A stretch of 64,000 nt of DNA from assembly GCF_004118855.1 (NCBI RefSeq), contig NZ_PDKF01000008.1:248001-312000 (forward strand). Reading direction: 5' to 3'. The notes under the pieces were generated by a model. It saw nothing but the letters and a program-made list of their open reading frames with translations, ran no database searches and was not told where the DNA came from. This stretch comes from Arcobacter sp. CECT 8983. Its GTDB lineage: Bacteria; Campylobacterota; Campylobacteria; Campylobacterales; Arcobacteraceae. The translations under genes were made by a program, and so were the position numbers. The stretch's first letter is position 1. Every line of letters starts with the position of its first letter. Of the stretch, positions 49,911 to 62,276 are shown in pieces.

Positions 49911-50969
49911 TCTATTTGATTCAAGAATCTTTGAAAGAGGTATTTTATTTTCTTTTATTAATTCATATGTTGTGTTAACTATTGTTTCAAGTCTTGTATT
50001 TCCAAGTTGATTTCCAAATACTAAAATATTAACACCAGAGTTAATAGCTAGTTCTAATGTTTGTTTTAGCGTATAGTGATTGCTTATGGCTTTCATTTGT
50101 AAATCATCACTTACAATTAAACCTTTGAAGTTAAGCCTTTCTCTTAGAAGTTTAGTATTTATATTATAAGATAAAGTTGCAGGATAATTTTTATCAAGTT
50201 GTTTATTGAAAACATGGGCTGTCATTATAAAATCCACTTTGTCTTTATTTATTAGATTTTTATATGGAGTTAATTCTTCTTTATTCCAAGTATTTGAAAT
50301 ATCTACAAAACCTTTGTGAGAATCAGCTTTTGAGGAACCATGTCCTGGAAAGTGTTTTAATACAGAAAAAATACTATTTTTCTTTTGTTCTTCTATAAAT
50401 ATTTGTGCTATTTTTGAAACTTCTTTACTATCTTTTGAATATGACCTTTCAAGTTTATTTATTACATAGTTGTCTTTATTTATGTTCAAGTCAACAACTG
50501 GTGCAAAGTTTAGATTAAAGCCATACTCTTTTAACTCAGCTGCTAACTTTGAGTAGATAGTTTTTATTTCATTTTCCGGTTTTTTAGCAATCTCTTTTGC
50601 ACTAGGGTAAGAAGTAAAACCATTATTTTTATTGAGTCTTTGAACTTTTCCACCTTCTTGGTCAATAGAAATAAACATTTTATAATCAGAATAGTTTTGA
50701 ATACTTGAAGTTAAAGCTTTTAGTTGAGTAGGGTTTTTTATATTTTTTATTTTCTTTGTTTTATATTTTTTACTAAATAATATTACTCCACCAAGATTGT
50801 ATTGTTTTATGTCATTTTTTAGTTGAGTGTTTAAAGAGAAACTATCAAAACCTAAGATGATAGTTCTTCCTATAAGTTTTTTTATCTCTTCTGCTTTGTA
50901 GTTTTCTTTCGCACTTACAGAAGAGAATAAAAAAGAAAATACTAAAAGAAGTTTAAATAACTGTACCAT
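49875..50969 (-). CDS. nagZ: Exported beta-N-acetylhexosaminidase (GH3, NagZ type)
   Basis: 364 residues from the ATG at 50969: MVQLFKLLLVFSFLFSSVSA is a clean signal peptide. A longer frame running upstream inside the diguanylate cyclase gene has no such start. GH3 catalytic parts are FISIDQEGGKVQRL, KHFPGHGSSKADSH (His/Asp acid-base pair) and the nucleophile in LIVSDDLQMKAI. It removes N-acetylglucosamine from muropeptides; the signal peptide predicts periplasmic action, unlike cytoplasmic E. coli NagZ. It overlaps the upstream gene by 17 bases. Confidence 0.88.
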   Translation of the reverse strand: MVQLFKLLLVFSFLFSSVSAKENYKAEEIKKLIGRTIILGFDSFSLNTQLKNDIKQYNLGGVILFSKKYKTKKIKNIKNPTQLKALTSSIQNYSDYKMFISIDQEGGKVQRLNKNNGFTSYPSAKEIAKKPENEIKTIYSKLAAELKEYGFNLNFAPVVDLNINKDNYVINKLERSYSKDSKEVSKIAQIFIEEQKKNSIFSVLKHFPGHGSSKADSHKGFVDISNTWNKEELTPYKNLINKDKVDFIMTAHVFNKQLDKNYPATLSYNINTKLLRERLNFKGLIVSDDLQMKAISNHYTLKQTLELAINSGVNILVFGNQLGNTRLETIVNTTYELIKENKIPLSKILESNRLINNLLLTNSI

Positions 50970-52215
50970 CTTCAATAATAATCTTATTTCTTCCACCTTC
51001 TTTTGCTTGATAAAGTAGCATATCTGCTTTTTGAATAGCATTTTCATATGAAGAGTGGTTATTTCTGATTGCAACACCAGCTGAGAATGTTACATGAATT
51101 TTTTCTTGTTTATAAATAAAGTCATTATCATTGATAATTGTTTTAATTCTCTTTAGATACTTAAGAAGTTCTCTTTTTAGATTGAAGTGAACAATAGCAA
51201 CAAACTCTTCTCCACCATATCTTCCTACAATATCAAATTCTCTTGTATTTTTATTTAAAACTTTTGCAAAAGTAGAAAGTATAATATCTCCTGCTTGGTG
51301 TCCATGATTATCATTTATTTTTTTGAAGTGATCTAAATCAAAGAATATAATTGCAAATTGAGTATTGTTTCTGTCAAACTGGCTTTCGATTTTTTTGATT
51401 GCCTCTTCATAAGCTCCTCTTGTTAAAACGCCAGTTAAGTGGTCTTTTGCACTTTGTTCTCTTGTTCTATCAAGTTCTTCTTCAAGTTTTTTTATTTTTT
51501 GCTCTAGGGATTCAACTTCTGATTTACCAGAAGAGAGTTTTTCTCCTACATGAGACATTTCACTTTCTATTGTAAGTGCAGCATCAATAAGTTTTGTTTG
51601 AAGCTCTGATAATTCTTCAAAACCAGTTGATTTTTGCATATCTATAGACTCAATTTGTGTTTTGATATTAGAAACTTCTTTTGAACCTTTTCCACTACTA
51701 TGAATAGCATCATTAAAGTATTGTCCCATAAGAGTTAATAATTTTGCTATATCAGAAGTTTTTTGTTTAACTACTTTTTTATCAGCTTCAAATCTTTTTG
51801 TAATAAATTCTTGCATCTCTTTTTGAATATCTTCTTCAAATAAAAGTGCAGGGGAGTTACCTATTTTAATAGAGAAGTTTTTTAGGTTTTCATCTACATC
51901 AATACTAATTGAAGGAGTAACTGCTTCTTGGAATAGTTTTGCTAAAGAATTTACATTGTCTTTTGAAACTCTATTAAGTAAAATAGGAATCATATCTTCA
52001 AAAGTTTGAATACCTTTTGATTGGATTTCTATTTGTTCATTTTTACTAAGTTTACTTATTAGTTCTTTAAACTGTTCGCACTCTTTAACTGAGAACTTGT
52101 AAGTTTTAGAAACATTACAAAACTCTTTATGATATTCATTTGGTGTAGCATCAAGACCTTTTTTCTTTATATTTATTAAGGTTTCTTTTACTATGCTATT
52201 TATATTTCTTTCCAT
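50953..52215 (-). CDS. Diguanylate cyclase (GGDEF)
   Basis: 420 residues. The N-terminal 200 residues are helical without membrane segments. A coiled coil (about 210-245, VESLEQKIKKLEEELDRTRE) leads to a GGDEF domain at about 250-415 with active site GRYGGEEF and the inhibitory I-site RxxD (REFD) five residues before it. It should make c-di-GMP in the cytoplasm with product inhibition. The signal sensed by the helical part is unknown. Overlaps nagZ. Confidence 0.92.
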   Translation of the reverse strand: MERNINSIVKETLINIKKKGLDATPNEYHKEFCNVSKTYKFSVKECEQFKELISKLSKNEQIEIQSKGIQTFEDMIPILLNRVSKDNVNSLAKLFQEAVTPSISIDVDENLKNFSIKIGNSPALLFEEDIQKEMQEFITKRFEADKKVVKQKTSDIAKLLTLMGQYFNDAIHSSGKGSKEVSNIKTQIESIDMQKSTGFEELSELQTKLIDAALTIESEMSHVGEKLSSGKSEVESLEQKIKKLEEELDRTREQSAKDHLTGVLTRGAYEEAIKKIESQFDRNNTQFAIIFFDLDHFKKINDNHGHQAGDIILSTFAKVLNKNTREFDIVGRYGGEEFVAIVHFNLKRELLKYLKRIKTIINDNDFIYKQEKIHVTFSAGVAIRNNHSSYENAIQKADMLLYQAKEGGRNKIIIEDGTVI

Positions 52216-55647: not shown

Positions 55648-57828
55648 TTAAGATTTAGTATTATGCTTATAGACTCCGTTAAAATCTTTTGGTGGAGTTA
55701 AAATAAACTCTTTACATCTTTTTATGTAAAGCTTATATATCTTTTTATTTGATTTGTTCTCATCTTCTTGTAAATCTTCAAATATCTTTAATGCTTCATT
55801 AAATTTTGAATCTTTGTATAATTTTATTGCTTTATGATATAAGTCTAGTTCTTTTTGTAATGTTTCATTTGGTTTACCAAAATCAATAACTTGCCAAATT
55901 TCTATAGGTTTGTTTTTCCCTTTTACAGTTACATAATCTAAGAATCTAAAAATATACTCTTTTTCTAGTTTTTCTTTTGTAAAGTTTGAAATATTTAATT
56001 TAGAATCATAATACTTACAAAGAGATTCTAATCTAGCTCCTAAATTAATAGTATCACCAATAACTGTATAATCACTTCTTAGTGAACTTCCCATTTCTCC
56101 AACAATTGCAAGACCTGTGTTTAATCCAATTCCAATATCTATTAAAGGTTTATTCTCTTTTTCAAGTTTTTTATTTAAAGGTTCAAGCTCTTTTATTTGA
56201 TATAAAGAGGCACTTACAGCTTTGTCTGCATGGTTTTTAACATCAGCAGGGGCATTCCAATATGCCATAATTGCATCACCAATATATTTATCAATAGTTC
56301 CTTCATATTTTGTAATAATATTACTCATAGGTTCCATATACTCATTTAAATATGAAATAAGCTTTTTGGCATTATTCATTTGTTCTGATATATTTGTGAA
56401 ACCTCTTACATCACTAAAGAATACAGTTACTTCTTTTTCCATAGCTTGAAATTCATTGCTATCAATATTTTTAAGTAGATTATCCATAACTTCTTTTGAT
56501 ACTTTTGCTGCAAATTTCTTTTTTATAGCTTCTTCTTGTTTGATTTCATAAAAATAGTCAAATAAAGTTGCAATAATAGCTGCAAAAATAATAGTTGCCA
56601 ATGGAAAAAATATATTTAAAACAATTCCATGGGTAAATAAAACATAATAAGTAAAAATTCCAAAGCCACCTAATAATAAAATAGTTCCTAAAGGATTAAA
56701 CCAAAAAGGAGTATATGTAATTAAAAGTACAGTAATTATAGAAAGTAAAAATATTAAAGTGACATTAGCACCATCTATCCAAGAAGCTTTGTAGATAAAA
56801 TCACCTTTTATAATATTATCAATAACATTTGCATGAACTTCAACTCCTGGATAAATTGATTCAAAAGGAGTTGCTCTTAAATCAAGTAATCCAACAGCTG
56901 AGGTTCCAATAAGTGCAATTTTACCTTCTAACTCTTTTTTATCAATTTTATTTTCATAGATATCAATTGCAGAGTAGTATTTAAAGTTCCCTTCTTTGCC
57001 TCTAAAGTTAACTAAAATTCTTCCATATCTATCAGTTGGGATTTTTAAATCTCCTAAAGATATATTCTCAATTCCTTGTTCATCATAATTAACAATTACT
57101 CTTTTTGTTTGAGTTATTATTCTTAAAACTTCTAATGACAAAGAAGGATAAATTATATCATCATAAGATATTACAAGGGGAACACTTCTTATGATTCCTG
57201 AGTTATCAGGAATATTATTAAAAAAACCACTGCTATAAGAGTTGCTTTGTAACAGAGGAATATTTAATATTGTTCCATATGCTTTAATTAAAGAGTTATT
57301 TCCTAATTGTTTATTTTTTTCAACAATTATTGCAGGTATTTCAGGTGCTCTTTTTCCTAAATGTTTTTTCTGTTCTAACTCAAAAACATAACCAAGTATC
57401 GTTGGTGTTGTGGCTACAGTTTTTGCAAAATCCAAATCATAGTTTGGAATATTCTCTTTTTTTATTCCAAACTCTTCAAAAACTTTGTGGGGAGAACTAT
57501 TGTCTTCTTCTGCAAAAACAATATCAAAAGCAATTAGTCCAATCTCATTTTGAGTAAGATTTTGTAATATTTTTGAGACCTTATTTCTTTGCCAAGGCCA
57601 TTGACCTAATTTGTTTAATGATTTTTCATCAATATCAATAATAATCACATTATTAGTATTAGAAATTTCACCTCTTATATTAAAAAGTGTATCTCTTAAT
57701 CTATTATCTATGGAATCGGGTAATTTAGGAAAAAAGATGTAGAAAGTTGAAGAAAAAATAGCAATAAAAATTGATACTAAAAAATATAGTAAAAACTTTT
57801 TTATTGCTTTTTTCTTATGCTTATTCAT
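55648..57828 (-). CDS. CHASE2-domain adenylate cyclase (class III)
   Basis: 726 residues. A membrane helix (12-33) and a CHASE2 sensing domain (about 40-345; VIIIDIDEKSL, LIAFDIVFAEED, IALIGTSAVGLLD) are followed by three membrane helices (about 355-425). The class III catalytic domain (about 465-650) has metal Asp473 (FFSDVRGF) and Asp518 (YIGDAIMAYW). The adenine-selecting pair is K514/T588, and N595 and R599 are the transition-state residues, so all catalytic positions are present and ATP is the likely substrate. The start overlaps the phosphodiesterase gene's stop by one base. Confidence 0.88.
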   Translation of the reverse strand: MNKHKKKAIKKFLLYFLVSIFIAIFSSTFYIFFPKLPDSIDNRLRDTLFNIRGEISNTNNVIIIDIDEKSLNKLGQWPWQRNKVSKILQNLTQNEIGLIAFDIVFAEEDNSSPHKVFEEFGIKKENIPNYDLDFAKTVATTPTILGYVFELEQKKHLGKRAPEIPAIIVEKNKQLGNNSLIKAYGTILNIPLLQSNSYSSGFFNNIPDNSGIIRSVPLVISYDDIIYPSLSLEVLRIITQTKRVIVNYDEQGIENISLGDLKIPTDRYGRILVNFRGKEGNFKYYSAIDIYENKIDKKELEGKIALIGTSAVGLLDLRATPFESIYPGVEVHANVIDNIIKGDFIYKASWIDGANVTLIFLLSIITVLLITYTPFWFNPLGTILLLGGFGIFTYYVLFTHGIVLNIFFPLATIIFAAIIATLFDYFYEIKQEEAIKKKFAAKVSKEVMDNLLKNIDSNEFQAMEKEVTVFFSDVRGFTNISEQMNNAKKLISYLNEYMEPMSNIITKYEGTIDKYIGDAIMAYWNAPADVKNHADKAVSASLYQIKELEPLNKKLEKENKPLIDIGIGLNTGLAIVGEMGSSLRSDYTVIGDTINLGARLESLCKYYDSKLNISNFTKEKLEKEYIFRFLDYVTVKGKNKPIEIWQVIDFGKPNETLQKELDLYHKAIKLYKDSKFNEALKIFEDLQEDENKSNKKIYKLYIKRCKEFILTPPKDFNGVYKHNTKS

Positions 57829-60176
57829 TAGAATAAAAGTTTACTTTCATCAATTTGATAATCAAACAGTTCTTCATAGGCATATTGTTTAAGAGCTTCA
57901 TTTTCATGGAAGAATTTTAATAAATTTTTATCAATTTCTCCATCTTTTGCCATAAAAGAGAGTATTTTAAATACTTCAGATAGTTTTTTTGCATCTTTAT
58001 ATGGTCTATCATTTGATGTTAAAGCTTCAAAGATATCTGCAAGAATCATAATTCTATCTTCTAAACTTAATTGAGTTTCATCTAATCCTCTAGGATAACC
58101 ATTTCCATTTAACTTTTCATGGTGATTAACTGCAATATTTAAAACATCTTTGTATTTTTTTGGGAATGGTAAAGAAGATAACATATCAAGAGAAAGCTGA
58201 GCATGATAATTCATAATTGATTTTTCATTGCTAGTTAGAGTTCCTTTTTTTATACAAAGGTTAAACTCTTCATCTTCTGATAAGAAGCTTGTTTTTTCTC
58301 CTTTTTTTATATAATTATATTTAGCTATTTCTTTAACTCTTTCAATATCTTTATCTTCCATAAATTCCCCACCAATATTGGCTCTTTTCAGGAATTTAAT
58401 ATCATTATCATATTTTTCAATATTTTTTATATACTCTTCTTGTGTAATCTCATTTTTAAGAAGTTTAATCTCTTCATCTCTTTTTAGAATTTCTACTCTT
58501 TCTTCTATAAATCCAATTCTATCTATCATTTTTTCTAGTTTTGTGGATTTATCAATAATTGATTCAGGCATTGAGATCTTACCAATATCATGCATCCATG
58601 CAGCAAGCTCTATTTGTCTAAAATCATTTTCACTATATCTTACTTCTTTGTAAGTTGTTTCATCTTCATGTATTGCTCTTGCAAGATAGTTAGCTACTTT
58701 TGCAACTCTTCCAATATGATTTCTTGTATGTTTTGATTTTGCATCTACTGCATGTGCAATTGTTGTTACAAAAGCATTTAAAAACTCTTCTAAACTATTG
58801 ATTAAAAAACTATTTGTTAAAGCCATTGCAGCTTGTGAAGCTAAAGCTTTAATAATCTTTTCATCTTCTTCTGTAAAGGCAATCTTTGATTTAGAGATTT
58901 TTGTTTTATTTATTAGTTGAAGCACTCCAATTACATCTTCTTCATGATTAATTAGAGGAATAACAAGCATTGATTTTGATTCATAACCTGTTCTTTTATC
59001 AAAATCCTTTGTTCCTTGAAAGTTATAGTCTTCATTATTATAAACATCGGGAATGTTAATAATCCTATTTTCCATTGCTGCAACTACTGCAACCATACTT
59101 TTATTTTTTGAGCCATCTTTTAAATATAAAGGCAGTGAATCCCAAGTAAGGTCATCTTTTGTTCCTCCCATAAAAATATTCAAAGGATCATTTTGAACTA
59201 CTTTAAACTCTAGGGATTTTTTGTCTTTTGACATAATATAAAGTGTTCCAGCTTCACAGTGAGTCAGTTCTCTTGTTAAAGTAAGAATCATTTCAAAAAG
59301 AGCACTTTTATCAAGTTCACTTGAAAGTTGAAGGTTTATATCCATAATTCTTTCAAACTTATTTTGACTTATTAAATCAGACTCTATTTGTTTTGTATCA
59401 ATATGAATAATATCACCTTCATTTAATATTTTTCCACCATTTTCCAATATCTTATATTCTTTTATTTCTTCAACAATTTCTTCATAAAATGAAGGTTTAA
59501 GGTGATATAAAAAGATTTGGATATCATCTCTTTGTATATTTTCAAGCTCTTTTTTTAGAAGTTCTGGCGTTAAATGCATACTTGCATGTGCTAATTGTTT
59601 TAAATGAGAAGGAAAAGAACACTCAATAATAAGACATTTGATTTTATAATTGTTATTTAATATTTCCCATATTTTTGGATTTATATAAGTATCTCCACTT
59701 ATTAGATACCCTAAGTCATCGTCTTTAATAACTTGGTACCCATATGCTCCTTTTATATGATTAGCTTTTATTGCTGTTATTTCATAATTTTCTATTTTAA
59801 TTGATTGTTCTTCTTTTATCTCAATAAATTCTAATGCTTTTTTATCTGATTTAAGTAGATTTATTTTTGTAAAATCAGGCCAAATTTTGTCATTGAAAGT
59901 GTGTTCTTTTAATGAGTTTATTGTCTCTTTAGAACCATAAATTTTAAGTGTTTCTTTTCTTCTTTCATAAAAACTTTCTATTATAAAAGGTAAATCGATT
60001 ATATGATCAGAGTGTGAATGCGTAATAAATATATGATCTATAAAAAGAGTTTCATCACTTAATGTATTAATTACATTACCTGCATCAATAATAATATTTT
60101 TAAAAATCTGAAAAGAAGTGGTTCCTTTAAGTTTTGTTTTACTACCACTTGCTCCAAGTACTTTTAAATAGTTCAT
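57828..60176 (-). CDS. Class II phosphodiesterase-GAF-HD-GYP fusion protein
   Basis: 782 residues with three domains. (1) Residues 1-255: metallo-beta-lactamase fold of the class II cyclic-nucleotide phosphodiesterase type, with H53-S-H-S-D-H58, HTFNDKIWPDF, the GDT at 161-163 and ECSFPSH...HASMHLTPELL. (2) Residues about 280-460: GAF domain with the full NKFDE motif (N423 K424, F434, D438 E439) known from cAMP/cGMP-binding GAFs. (3) Residues about 465-770: HD-GYP with H529-D530 and HHEKLNGNGYPRG (GYP 693-695), the c-di-GMP phosphodiesterase type, carrying an extra charged segment of roughly 90 residues between its halves. First gene of a pair with the cyclase. Confidence 0.85.
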   Translation of the reverse strand: MNYLKVLGASGSKTKLKGTTSFQIFKNIIIDAGNVINTLSDETLFIDHIFITHSHSDHIIDLPFIIESFYERRKETLKIYGSKETINSLKEHTFNDKIWPDFTKINLLKSDKKALEFIEIKEEQSIKIENYEITAIKANHIKGAYGYQVIKDDDLGYLISGDTYINPKIWEILNNNYKIKCLIIECSFPSHLKQLAHASMHLTPELLKKELENIQRDDIQIFLYHLKPSFYEEIVEEIKEYKILENGGKILNEGDIIHIDTKQIESDLISQNKFERIMDINLQLSSELDKSALFEMILTLTRELTHCEAGTLYIMSKDKKSLEFKVVQNDPLNIFMGGTKDDLTWDSLPLYLKDGSKNKSMVAVVAAMENRIINIPDVYNNEDYNFQGTKDFDKRTGYESKSMLVIPLINHEEDVIGVLQLINKTKISKSKIAFTEEDEKIIKALASQAAMALTNSFLINSLEEFLNAFVTTIAHAVDAKSKHTRNHIGRVAKVANYLARAIHEDETTYKEVRYSENDFRQIELAAWMHDIGKISMPESIIDKSTKLEKMIDRIGFIEERVEILKRDEEIKLLKNEITQEEYIKNIEKYDNDIKFLKRANIGGEFMEDKDIERVKEIAKYNYIKKGEKTSFLSEDEEFNLCIKKGTLTSNEKSIMNYHAQLSLDMLSSLPFPKKYKDVLNIAVNHHEKLNGNGYPRGLDETQLSLEDRIMILADIFEALTSNDRPYKDAKKLSEVFKILSFMAKDGEIDKNLLKFFHENEALKQYAYEELFDYQIDESKLLF

Positions 60177-60214: not shown

Positions 60215-61099
60215 CTATTTTTCTTTGTTGATTACAAAGTCATCATAAGGGTCCATATGAATATTTATAATCCAGTCTCTTTTTGTATCTAAGTTTTTTA
60301 TAGAAGCTTCAATTTTGTCTGAAACTTTGTGAGCATCCATTAATGTAATTAAACAATCAAAAACTAAATGTACTTCAACAAAAGTTTGGTTACCAGCTTC
60401 TCTTGTTTTAAGAAGATGATGCGTGTTTACTTTTTCTTCTTTGTTAATTATTTCAGTTATATTTTTGACAAGTTCTTCATCAACTGCTCTATCAAGTAAA
60501 ACTAAGATACCATCTTGGATTAGTTCATAAGCAGAATAGATAATAAAAATTGAAATACCTCCACCAACAATTACATCAATAAGTTCAATTCCTGTGAAGT
60601 TTATTAAAATAAGAGATATAAAAACAGCAGCATTTGTATATACATCTGTTTTATAATGTAGGGCATCAGCTTTAATAACCATACTTCCTGTTTGTTTTGC
60701 AACACGATTTAAGTATATAACTAAACTTATAGTAATTATAATTGAAAGTGTCATTACAAGTAAAGAAATATCTAAATACTGAGAAGTTTCATCATTTATA
60801 GCTTTTTTAATGGCTTGATAAAGTAAAAATAAGCCAGAGATACAAATAATTGTACCTTCAATTACAGAAGCTAAGGCTTCTATTTTTCCTCTTCCATAGT
60901 TAAAGTGTTTATCGGCAGGTTTTTCTGAATTGCTAATTGCAAAGTAGTTAAAAATAGATACAAACATATCAAGTACAGAATCAATGGCAGAAGCAAGAAC
61001 TGCAACTGAACCACTAGCAATTCCTACAACTAATTTGATTAATGTAAGAATTGCTGCAACGCTACTTGATACAAGCGTTGCTTTTTTTTGTGGGGTCAT
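60215..61099 (-). CDS. Cation diffusion facilitator transporter (FieF/ZitB type)
   Basis: 294 residues, six membrane helices plus a cytoplasmic C-terminal domain. Metal-site residues appear in SAIDSVLDMFVSIFNYFA (helix II) and KADALHYKTDVYTNAAV (helix V, HxxxD). KHFNYGRGKIEALASVIEG is the family loop. The C terminus includes VEVHLVFD and NIHMDP. Exports Zn2+, Fe2+ or similar divalent ions by proton antiport; exact metal not readable. It directly follows the aminotransferase gene (1-base gap). Confidence 0.93.
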   Translation of the reverse strand: MTPQKKATLVSSSVAAILTLIKLVVGIASGSVAVLASAIDSVLDMFVSIFNYFAISNSEKPADKHFNYGRGKIEALASVIEGTIICISGLFLLYQAIKKAINDETSQYLDISLLVMTLSIIITISLVIYLNRVAKQTGSMVIKADALHYKTDVYTNAAVFISLILINFTGIELIDVIVGGGISIFIIYSAYELIQDGILVLLDRAVDEELVKNITEIINKEEKVNTHHLLKTREAGNQTFVEVHLVFDCLITLMDAHKVSDKIEASIKNLDTKRDWIINIHMDPYDDFVINKEK

Positions 61100-61100
61100 A

Positions 61101-62276
61101 TTATGAGTAGTTTTCTTCTACAAACTTTTTAATTCTTCTAATACCTTCTTCAATAGTAGGTAAGTCAGTTGCAAAAGAGAATCTAAAATAACCTTCAGTT
61201 CCAAATGCAAGACCTGGAACAATTGCTACACCTTCTTTTTCTAATAAATCAGCAGAAAATTTCATAGAGTCTCCACCAATATCTTTAATATTTACAAAAA
61301 GATAGAATGCTCCTTGTGGTACAACACAAGAAATTCCTTTTATAGCATTGAATGATTCAACTGCAACATTTCTTCTTTTTTCAAACTCTTTTCTCATAGC
61401 TTCAATATTCTCATCAGCACTTCCATCTAGGGCTGTAACAGCTGCTTGTAAAGTTATTGAGTTTACATTTGAAGTAACTTGTCCTTGAAGTTTTGTCATA
61501 GCTTTTATTAGTGCTTTATGAGGAGTTGCAACATAACCATATCTCCAACCAGTCATAGCAACTGCTTTACTAATACCATTAATAGTTACTGTTCTTTGGA
61601 ACATGTCATCATTAACAGAAGCAACTGCTGTGAACTCTTCTCCATCATAAATGATTTTCTCATACATCTCATCACTTAATACTAAAATATCTGTACCTTT
61701 TAGTACTTCAGCTAACGATAATAATTCTTCTTTTGTATATACTGCACCAGTTGGGTTAGATGGAGTATTTAAAAGTAAAATTTTTGTTTTATCTGTAATT
61801 GCTGCTTTTAATTGTTCAGCAGTGATTTTGAATTCTGTAGAATCATCTGTTTCAATAAATACAGGAACACCATCAGAAAATTTTACTTGCTCAGGATATG
61901 TAACCCAGTATGGAGCAGGAATAATTACTTCATCACCTTCTTCAATTAGACATTGAAATAGGTTAAATAATGAATGTTTTGCTCCATTAGATACAATGAT
62001 TTCATCTAAATCATAATCTAATCCATGATCAGTTTTTAATTTCTTGATAATTGCTTTTTTAGTTTCAATGGTACCTTCAACAGCAGTGTATTTTGTGTGA
62101 CCGTCTTTGATTGCTTGGATGGCTGCTTCTTTAATAACTTCAGGTGTATCAAAATCTGGTTCACCCGCACTAAAACTTAAAATGTCTTTACCTTGTGCCT
62201 TTAACTCCCTTGCTAAAGCTGTAATTGCCATTGTAACTGATGGCGATAGGTTTTCCATTCTACTTGCAATTTTCAT
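61101..62276 (-). CDS. Aspartate aminotransferase (class I, subgroup Ib)
   Basis: 391 residues, PLP fold-type I. FSAGEPDFDTP at the N terminus, YTAVEGTIETKKAI, LLNTPSNPTGAVY, the PLP lysine in NGISKAVAMTGWRYGY and the C-terminal FRFSFA arginine are all present. Transfers amino groups between aspartate/glutamate and oxo acids; related enzymes also act on prephenate, so substrate breadth is uncertain. Confidence 0.93.
   Translation of the reverse strand: MKIASRMENLSPSVTMAITALARELKAQGKDILSFSAGEPDFDTPEVIKEAAIQAIKDGHTKYTAVEGTIETKKAIIKKLKTDHGLDYDLDEIIVSNGAKHSLFNLFQCLIEEGDEVIIPAPYWVTYPEQVKFSDGVPVFIETDDSTEFKITAEQLKAAITDKTKILLLNTPSNPTGAVYTKEELLSLAEVLKGTDILVLSDEMYEKIIYDGEEFTAVASVNDDMFQRTVTINGISKAVAMTGWRYGYVATPHKALIKAMTKLQGQVTSNVNSITLQAAVTALDGSADENIEAMRKEFEKRRNVAVESFNAIKGISCVVPQGAFYLFVNIKDIGGDSMKFSADLLEKEGVAIVPGLAFGTEGYFRFSFATDLPTIEEGIRRIKKFVEENYS

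Follow-up and report, generated by a model that had tools for sequence, protein, structure and literature searches.

A putative cyclic AMP to cyclic di-GMP relay with its own off switch, encoded by a CHASE2 cyclase and an MBL-GAF-HD-GYP fusion protein in Arcobacter

Known systems and the proposed circuit

Enzymes through which cyclic AMP (cAMP) controls cyclic di-GMP (c-di-GMP) have been described in several bacteria. Tlr0485 is a GAF-HD-GYP enzyme activated by cAMP (Enomoto 2020, via PMC8846402), Lcd1 of Leptospira is a cAMP-dependent GAF-GGDEF protein, and Bd1971 of Bdellovibrio is a c-di-GMP phosphodiesterase with a cyclic-nucleotide-binding domain (PMC8846402). PmGH of Persephonella marina is a proven c-di-GMP phosphodiesterase of GAF-HD-GYP architecture (PDB 4mcw, 4mdz, 4me4), for which the accessible text names no GAF ligand (PMC4159591). 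The adenylate cyclases reported from Campylobacterota carry CHASE2 domains and mostly cluster with cAMP phosphodiesterase, FecR and TPR proteins (PMC9239204). Here we consider two adjoining genes of Arcobacter sp. CECT 8983, found in a 64,000-nucleotide stretch of contig NZ_PDKF01000008.1 (hereafter the window). The first encodes P0001, a fusion of a metallo-beta-lactamase-fold (MBL) domain of the class II cyclic-nucleotide phosphodiesterase type with a GAF and an HD-GYP domain; the second encodes P0002, a class III adenylate cyclase with a CHASE2 sensor.

By its description Tlr0485 is like P0001 in tying a GAF to an HD-GYP domain and has the input (cAMP) and the output (c-di-GMP) that we propose for P0001, but the accessible text says nothing of a cAMP phosphodiesterase fused to it (PMC8846402). 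Lcd1 and Bd1971 resemble the circuit proposed below in that cAMP controls a c-di-GMP enzyme; unlike P0001 they have other output or sensor domains, and the same text mentions no fused cAMP hydrolase. PmGH lacks an MBL domain, and is a close relative of a second, reverse fusion that we describe below. For the Campylobacterota cluster of cyclase and phosphodiesterase, the accessible text mentions neither GAF nor HD-GYP, and no fusion or coupling of cAMP to c-di-GMP (PMC9239204), in contrast to the pair studied here, while a Pfam scan of eight of the pair's neighbours in the window gave no FecR or TPR match. A literature search, with subscription papers and supplements outside it, recognised no paper on an MBL-GAF-HD-GYP or a GAF-HD-GYP-MBL protein. 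As far as this search shows, what is new is the fusion, the reverse form of it and the way in which their parts are exchanged as modules. The initial annotation, which knew of no described system with this layout, goes too far with regard to the parts: a cAMP-activated GAF-HD-GYP enzyme and a cyclase/phosphodiesterase cluster had already been published.

We propose that the pair is probably a relay from cAMP to c-di-GMP that carries its own off switch. The membrane cyclase would make cAMP, driven by a signal on its CHASE2 domain, and this cAMP would bind the GAF domain of the partner and change, most likely raise, the activity of the HD-GYP domain. The latter would in turn hydrolyse a cyclic dinucleotide, most likely c-di-GMP, and the N-terminal class II phosphodiesterase domain would hydrolyse the cAMP and so end the signal. 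As a prediction the circuit appears well supported. If true, it would be a compact device that converts one second messenger to another and erases its input on the same protein, and it would provide a defined target of cAMP, besides Crp-like proteins, in many bacteria of this order of Campylobacterota.

The gene pair, its distribution and its repeated fusion

Both genes are intact and, as initially annotated, overlap by one base (TAATG), with the fusion gene first and the cyclase gene second (Table 1). All domains score above their curated Pfam cut-offs: in P0001 these are HD_5 (121 bits against 27.2), PDEase_II (62 against 23.7) and GAF (PF01590; 53.5 against 22.4), and in P0002 CHASE2 (198 bits) and Guanylate_cyc (78.6 bits). 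A chance open reading frame or an annotation artefact is rejected by lengths of 782 and 726 amino acids and by conservation across many families. The residues D473, K514, D518, T588, N595 and R599 of the cyclase are found in all 26 aligned relatives. We take K514 and T588 to be the adenine-selecting pair and the two aspartates to bind metal, the roles of the asparagine and arginine being likewise assumed; the complete CHASE2 cyclase with this pair, already read from the sequence in the initial annotation, is therefore borne out. The genome of the window encodes three class III cyclases, seven cyclic-nucleotide-binding (PF00027) matches, a single PF01590 match, which is the P0001 GAF, and seven HD_5 proteins (eight matches, two of them within P0001). 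The third cyclase (L164:2667-4142, contig C2) has a HAMP domain, stands beside a TPR protein and has no CHASE2 match, unlike the reported cyclases of the phylum, all of which bear CHASE2 according to the accessible text (PMC9239204).

Table 1. Features of the gene pair, in coordinates of the window
Feature	Residues	Position	Strand	Basis or remark
MBL-GAF-HD-GYP gene, P0001	782 aa	57828..60176	minus	ORF list, sequence, Pfam
CHASE2 class III adenylate-cyclase gene, P0002	726 aa	55648..57828	minus	ORF list, sequence, Pfam
MBL domain, class II cyclic-nucleotide phosphodiesterase type (P0001)	1-262	59391..60176	minus	PF02112
HSHSDH metal site (P0001)	H53-H58	60003..60020	minus	further ligands H140, D162, H225
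GAF domain, cyclic-nucleotide type (P0001)	266-470	58767..59381	minus	PDB relatives by profile
NKFDE motif (P0001)	N423-E439 (N423 K424 F434 D438 E439)	58860..58910	minus	sequence
HD-GYP domain (P0001)	463-782	57831..58790	minus	PF13487
Insertion inside HD-GYP, possibly HdiD-like (P0001)	about 548-640	58257..58535	minus	locally confident part of model
CHASE2 sensor domain (P0002)	29-367	56728..57744	minus	PF05226
Class III cyclase domain (P0002)	465-642	55903..56436	minus	PF00211

Among 298 genomes of the order, a search with P0001 (E <=1e-60) gave matches in 84, so that a peculiarity of a single strain is rejected, and a search with P0002 gave matches in 88. By aligned range the 93 places listed for P0001 comprise 55 full fusions (in 54 genomes), 15 places with GAF-HD-GYP only, 20 with MBL only (one of which, in G238, is a reverse fusion) and 3 partial ones. 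With linkage defined as lying within 5 kb, 42 of the 55 fusions are linked to a CHASE2-cyclase match (30 with the cyclase first, 10 with the fusion first and 2 on opposite strands, convergent), and the search for this architecture and its co-occurrence with CHASE2 cyclases, proposed with the initial annotation, thus found both. A single scan of genome contigs gave two full-length relatives, L039 (91%) and L040 (65%), and two partial ones that are excluded from all counts (L041, HD-GYP region; L042, a short GAF stretch). P0001 had no match in a PHROG search, whereas a PHROG of unknown function covers most of P0002, and a scan of viral contigs with the GAF alignment found no relative.

Co-occurrence extends to the separate parts. 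By profile (MBL at E <=1e-25, class III cyclase at E <=1e-8) the MBL is found in 101 of the 298 genomes and the cyclase in 93, with both in 86 and a cyclase without MBL in 7, and a cyclase domain is found no more than 5 kb away from at least 63 of 105 MBL genes (these exclude a 106th row, which is the second fragment of a gene broken in G259). Strong GAF matches (>200 bits) occur in 71 genomes, 67 with a cyclase and 4 without; generic HD-GYP places, assigned by aligned range as a control, occur in 56 genomes, of which 37 have a cyclase and 19 do not. The suggestion that co-occurrence arises solely because larger genomes signal more is rejected on these figures, the GAF and the MBL (86 against 15) being more skewed than the control, although part of the association must be general because the control is itself enriched for cyclases. 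In the family of the window the MBL is found in 15/15 genomes with a cyclase and 4/15 others; Fisher p-values for such counts take no account of relatedness and carry no weight here. On conservation of the pair in this family, raised by the initial annotation, the fusion is present in 16 of the 30 genomes, and 10 of the 17 fusion genes are linked to a cyclase. Three loci of the same family (L099, L100 and L101, in G131, G175 and G197) have only the MBL part (300 aa), and their genomes have no class III cyclase match; these MBL proteins nest among fusions in the MBL tree, which is apparently decay following loss of the circuit.

In genome stretches fetched around the matches, the same parts are met in further arrangements. 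The reverse fusion, GAF-HD-GYP-MBL, is intact in G238, G255, G034 and G147 and broken in G247, and three of the four intact ones stand beside a cyclase; its residues 20-375 match PmGH with 336 bits. Cyclase, GAF-HD-GYP and MBL form a row of three genes in G275, G281, G102 and G158; the order in G047 is GAF-HD-GYP, cyclase, MBL, MBL, and in G241 the cyclase faces MBL and GAF-HD-GYP. A cyclase with an MBL is seen in G017, G035, G050, G100, G162, G167, G156, G089 and G152 (where the MBL is cut by the contig end), and GAF-HD-GYP with MBL but no adjacent cyclase in G134, G074, G032, G014 and G250.

In a tree of 84 MBL rows the four reverse fusions fall within the stand-alone MBL proteins of the arrangements just listed, and in a tree of 55 HD-GYP rows, made with the insertion removed (and with own_L001, whose branch of 4.19 suggests that it was badly cut, and the lost L007 unused), a branch 2.94 changes per column in length lies between a long and a short type, and the window genome has four other HD-GYPs on the short side. 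The N- and C-terminal fusions are therefore separate events. An approximately unbiased (AU) test on a quick tree also rejected a single origin of the N-terminal fusion (p 0.006); however, 27 of the 81 inner branches of the MBL tree have less than 80% support and stand-alone MBL proteins may be losses, so our claim goes no further than the separateness of the N-terminal from the C-terminal fusion. On these trees the same kinds of parts have been fused at least twice, in opposite orders and with two HD-GYP lineages.

It is this repeated joining, in opposite orders, that makes a link between cAMP and c-di-GMP credible. The many combinations in which the cyclase, the cAMP-type GAF and the class II phosphodiesterase turn up argue that all three serve one messenger, and the HD-GYP domain, as the only part facing another messenger, is the likely output. 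A more tentative extension, which we would not favour at even odds, is that one cAMP-binding GAF controls both hydrolases, in which case cAMP would trigger c-di-GMP breakdown together with its own destruction, the device would act as a pulse maker next to the membrane cyclase, and the coupling would have been selected and fused at least twice. As natural variants exist in which the parts are separate, half fused or fused in reverse, comparing them could test what physical coupling is worth in second-messenger circuits.

Weighing the circuit against its alternatives

The circuit put forward in the initial annotation is the best reading and is strengthened by linkage across families, co-occurrence and the reverse-order fusion; it is weakened by the loss of one of five ligand contacts known from CyaB2 and by a predicted MBL fold nearer to RNase Z than to PDE1. 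The observations that weigh against the relay concern its linkage, its GAF pocket, its HD-GYP site and its MBL fold, and are given here in that order. Ten of the 55 fusions are unlinked, with a cyclase elsewhere in the genome; three are in genomes without a cyclase match, namely G185 (81% complete), G224 (79%) and G290 (100%); and for 15 of the 101 MBL genomes the search at E 1e-8 gave no class III cyclase. At the G290 locus (L048) the fusion is kept and the upstream genes are sized as in L039 and L040, while a lactate/malate dehydrogenase gene, and no cyclase, follows.

The P0001 GAF is, by sequence, of the cyclic-nucleotide type. A profile of 35 sequences matched 26 PDB sequences at E <=0.01, and the 21 chains scoring at least 34 bits consist of 20 named as cyclic-nucleotide phosphodiesterases or cyclases and of PmGH (77.6 bits), the next matches being a chemoreceptor (26 bits) and DevS (19 bits). 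Among the 20 are PDE5, CyaB2, PDE2, PDE10 and PDE6, and the last of them, 5w10, is the cAMP-bound GAF of Leptospira Lcd1. It would follow that the GAF of the model enzyme PmGH is also of the cyclic-nucleotide type. Every residue of the NKFDE motif reported in the initial annotation is present in P0001. Of 57 fusion rows all 57 retain the N, 56 the D, 54 the K, 48 the F and 40 the E, which leaves E439 replaced in 17. As this motif marks cyclic-nucleotide GAFs without touching the ligand (PMC11977230), we also mapped the residues of CyaB2 that contact cAMP, which are R291, T293, I308, D356 and N359 (PMC4411481), using the profile alignment with the chain numbering shifted by 57. They fall on A309, T311, V326, D393 and T396 of P0001, of which two are identical, two similar and one different. 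Among 67 long-type rows, position 393 is D in all; T stands at 311 in 65, with S in the other 2, and at 396 in 40, with N there in 23. The arginine is lost throughout (G or A in 67/67), whereas the short GAF-HD-GYP type has R at this position in 20/20. The AlphaFold2 model of whole P0001, run with three sequences, has a mean predicted local distance difference test (pLDDT) score of 48.5 and falls below 50 nearly throughout the GAF region; it is unfit for the pocket and was not used for it. We infer cAMP rather than cGMP as the ligand because the neighbouring cyclase is of the adenine type.

One possibility is that the GAF mainly controls the MBL domain, giving a cAMP-regulated cAMP phosphodiesterase like the mammalian GAF-PDEs, with the HD-GYP domain as a passenger or binding module. 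In G205 an MBL-GAF protein without HD-GYP is convergent with a cyclase, in G162 a row of cyclase and MBL includes a separate GAF protein, and the nearest solved relatives of the GAF regulate cyclic-nucleotide phosphodiesterases and cyclases. However, the seven metal ligands of the HD-GYP domain besides that corresponding to PmGH E185 (H487, H529, D530, H658, H685, H686 and D714) are invariant in 67/67 rows, and G001 has an MBL-less GAF-HD-GYP beside a cyclase. In PmGH, moreover, the GAF and a long helix form the dimer that carries the HD-GYP domain (PMC4159591). We therefore consider control of the MBL domain unlikely as the main role of the GAF, although an action of the GAF on the MBL as well is suggested by G205.

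A further alternative accepts the relay up to its last step and has the HD-GYP domain act on another cyclic dinucleotide, for example 3'3'-cyclic GMP-AMP (3'3'-cGAMP), or on pGpG, so that its output would not be the c-di-GMP pool. Here the departures from canonical positions are relevant. The initial annotation read HD and GYP as intact, which they are, but S481, H483, E717 and N690 differ from the canonical residues. In P0001 the GYP motif reads HHEKLNGNGYP, with N690 replacing the D of HHExxDG, as in 59 of the 67 rows; D183 and D308 of PmGH become S (S481) and E (E717) in 67/67, and E185, the ligand of the third metal, becomes H483, the position being H, Y or F in 62 of the rows and Y in 42. 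Mutation of D183 or D308 of PmGH to alanine was as harmful as mutation of the metal ligands (PMC4159591). These departures are, from the alignment, family-wide rather than damage, and K533 (PmGH K225) is invariant in 67/67. The change at E185 is not exclusive: PmGH belongs to an E/D-T-G group of HD-GYPs, while an entire group with Y or F, like most of the P0001 family, has been described (PMC4159591). The short, PmGH-like type has S at the D183 position in 20/20 and N in HHExxDG in 11/20, and since all of these relatives close to PmGH have the serine, it need not abolish activity.

The insertion inside the HD-GYP domain bears on the same question. In an otherwise poor model it has helices at 554-573, 579-601 and 608-618 and strands at 621-624 and 627-630, and in these predicted helices and hairpin it may resemble HdiD of Leptospira LIC_11189, which lies between HD and GYP and is made up of two long and some short helices with a beta-hairpin (PMC12943098). 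Those who named HdiD suggest that it may permit other cyclic dinucleotides (PMC12943098), and the PDB matches include one chain under the name 3'3'-cGAMP-specific phosphodiesterase 3. On the other side, the best PDB match of the HD-GYP domain is the c-di-GMP enzyme PmGH, and some 3.4 kb beyond the cyclase gene, in the downstream direction, is a GGDEF (diguanylate cyclase) gene, which would make c-di-GMP (50953-52215, minus). Activity as a phosphodiesterase was seen in a reporter strain for LA2847, which alone among the Leptospira HD-GYPs combines HD with HHExxDGxxGYP (PMC5932348); as it alone has both, we identify it as very likely LIC_11189, the protein that bears HdiD. Overall a substrate other than c-di-GMP seems improbable to us, and we keep c-di-GMP as the likely substrate of the relay.

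The off switch would depend on the MBL domain, whose metal site is intact, with H53, H55, H58, H140, D162 and H225 kept in all 57 fusion rows and D57 in 56. Yeast PDE1 (PDB 4ojv), which we take to be a 369-residue chain without GAF or HD-GYP, is its best PDB match by sequence, both in a single-sequence search (9.4e-10) and by profile (55 bits, where RNase Z scores 46.8), and the two share the blocks HxFNxxIWPD and HLxP. About 46 residues of the RNase Z chain (~155-200), between its two aligned parts and presumably the tRNA arm, have no counterpart in the domain. The order is reversed by fold, as a Foldseek search with an AlphaFold2 model of the domain alone (mean pLDDT 70.5) placed RNase Z first (template modelling, TM, score 0.68) and PDE1 thirteenth (TM 0.58), so that of the initial reading the likeness to phosphodiesterases stands by sequence but not by predicted fold. 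That the domain is an RNase Z-like or other nuclease or hydrolase, and not a cyclic-nucleotide phosphodiesterase, is very improbable: beyond this fold ranking, no other gene of the window genome exceeds the RNase Z cut-off (TIGR02651), but RNase Z models reach at most 49.7 bits on P0001 against a cut-off of 292.95, whereas PDEase_II exceeds its own, and the gene is patchy and tracks cyclases in the genomes counted above, unlike a housekeeping nuclease.

Neighbouring genes and related domains elsewhere

Genes for a cation-efflux protein and a class I/II aminotransferase precede the pair at 60215-62276 (minus), with short gaps, and genes of like size and similarity also precede the fusion in L039, L040 and L048. 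Although the window itself has none among the scanned neighbours, FecR-domain proteins are found near a CHASE2 cyclase or a fusion at seven other loci (L054, L059, L084, L086, L087, L094 and L098), Pfam identifying FecR in 7 of 9 scanned proteins from such loci, one from each; these proteins may be part of the signal input. The L059 protein also has an outer-membrane barrel match, and at L056 a TPR protein lies between cyclase and fusion.

The same type of GAF, scoring 111-248 bits, occurs in other proteins at L143-L151 (G225, G252, G296, G070, G043, G004 and G024). That of L144 is GAF-HisKA-HATPase by Pfam, and those of L143, L146 and L148 look alike by eye; from this domain make-up, cyclic nucleotides may also feed histidine kinases.

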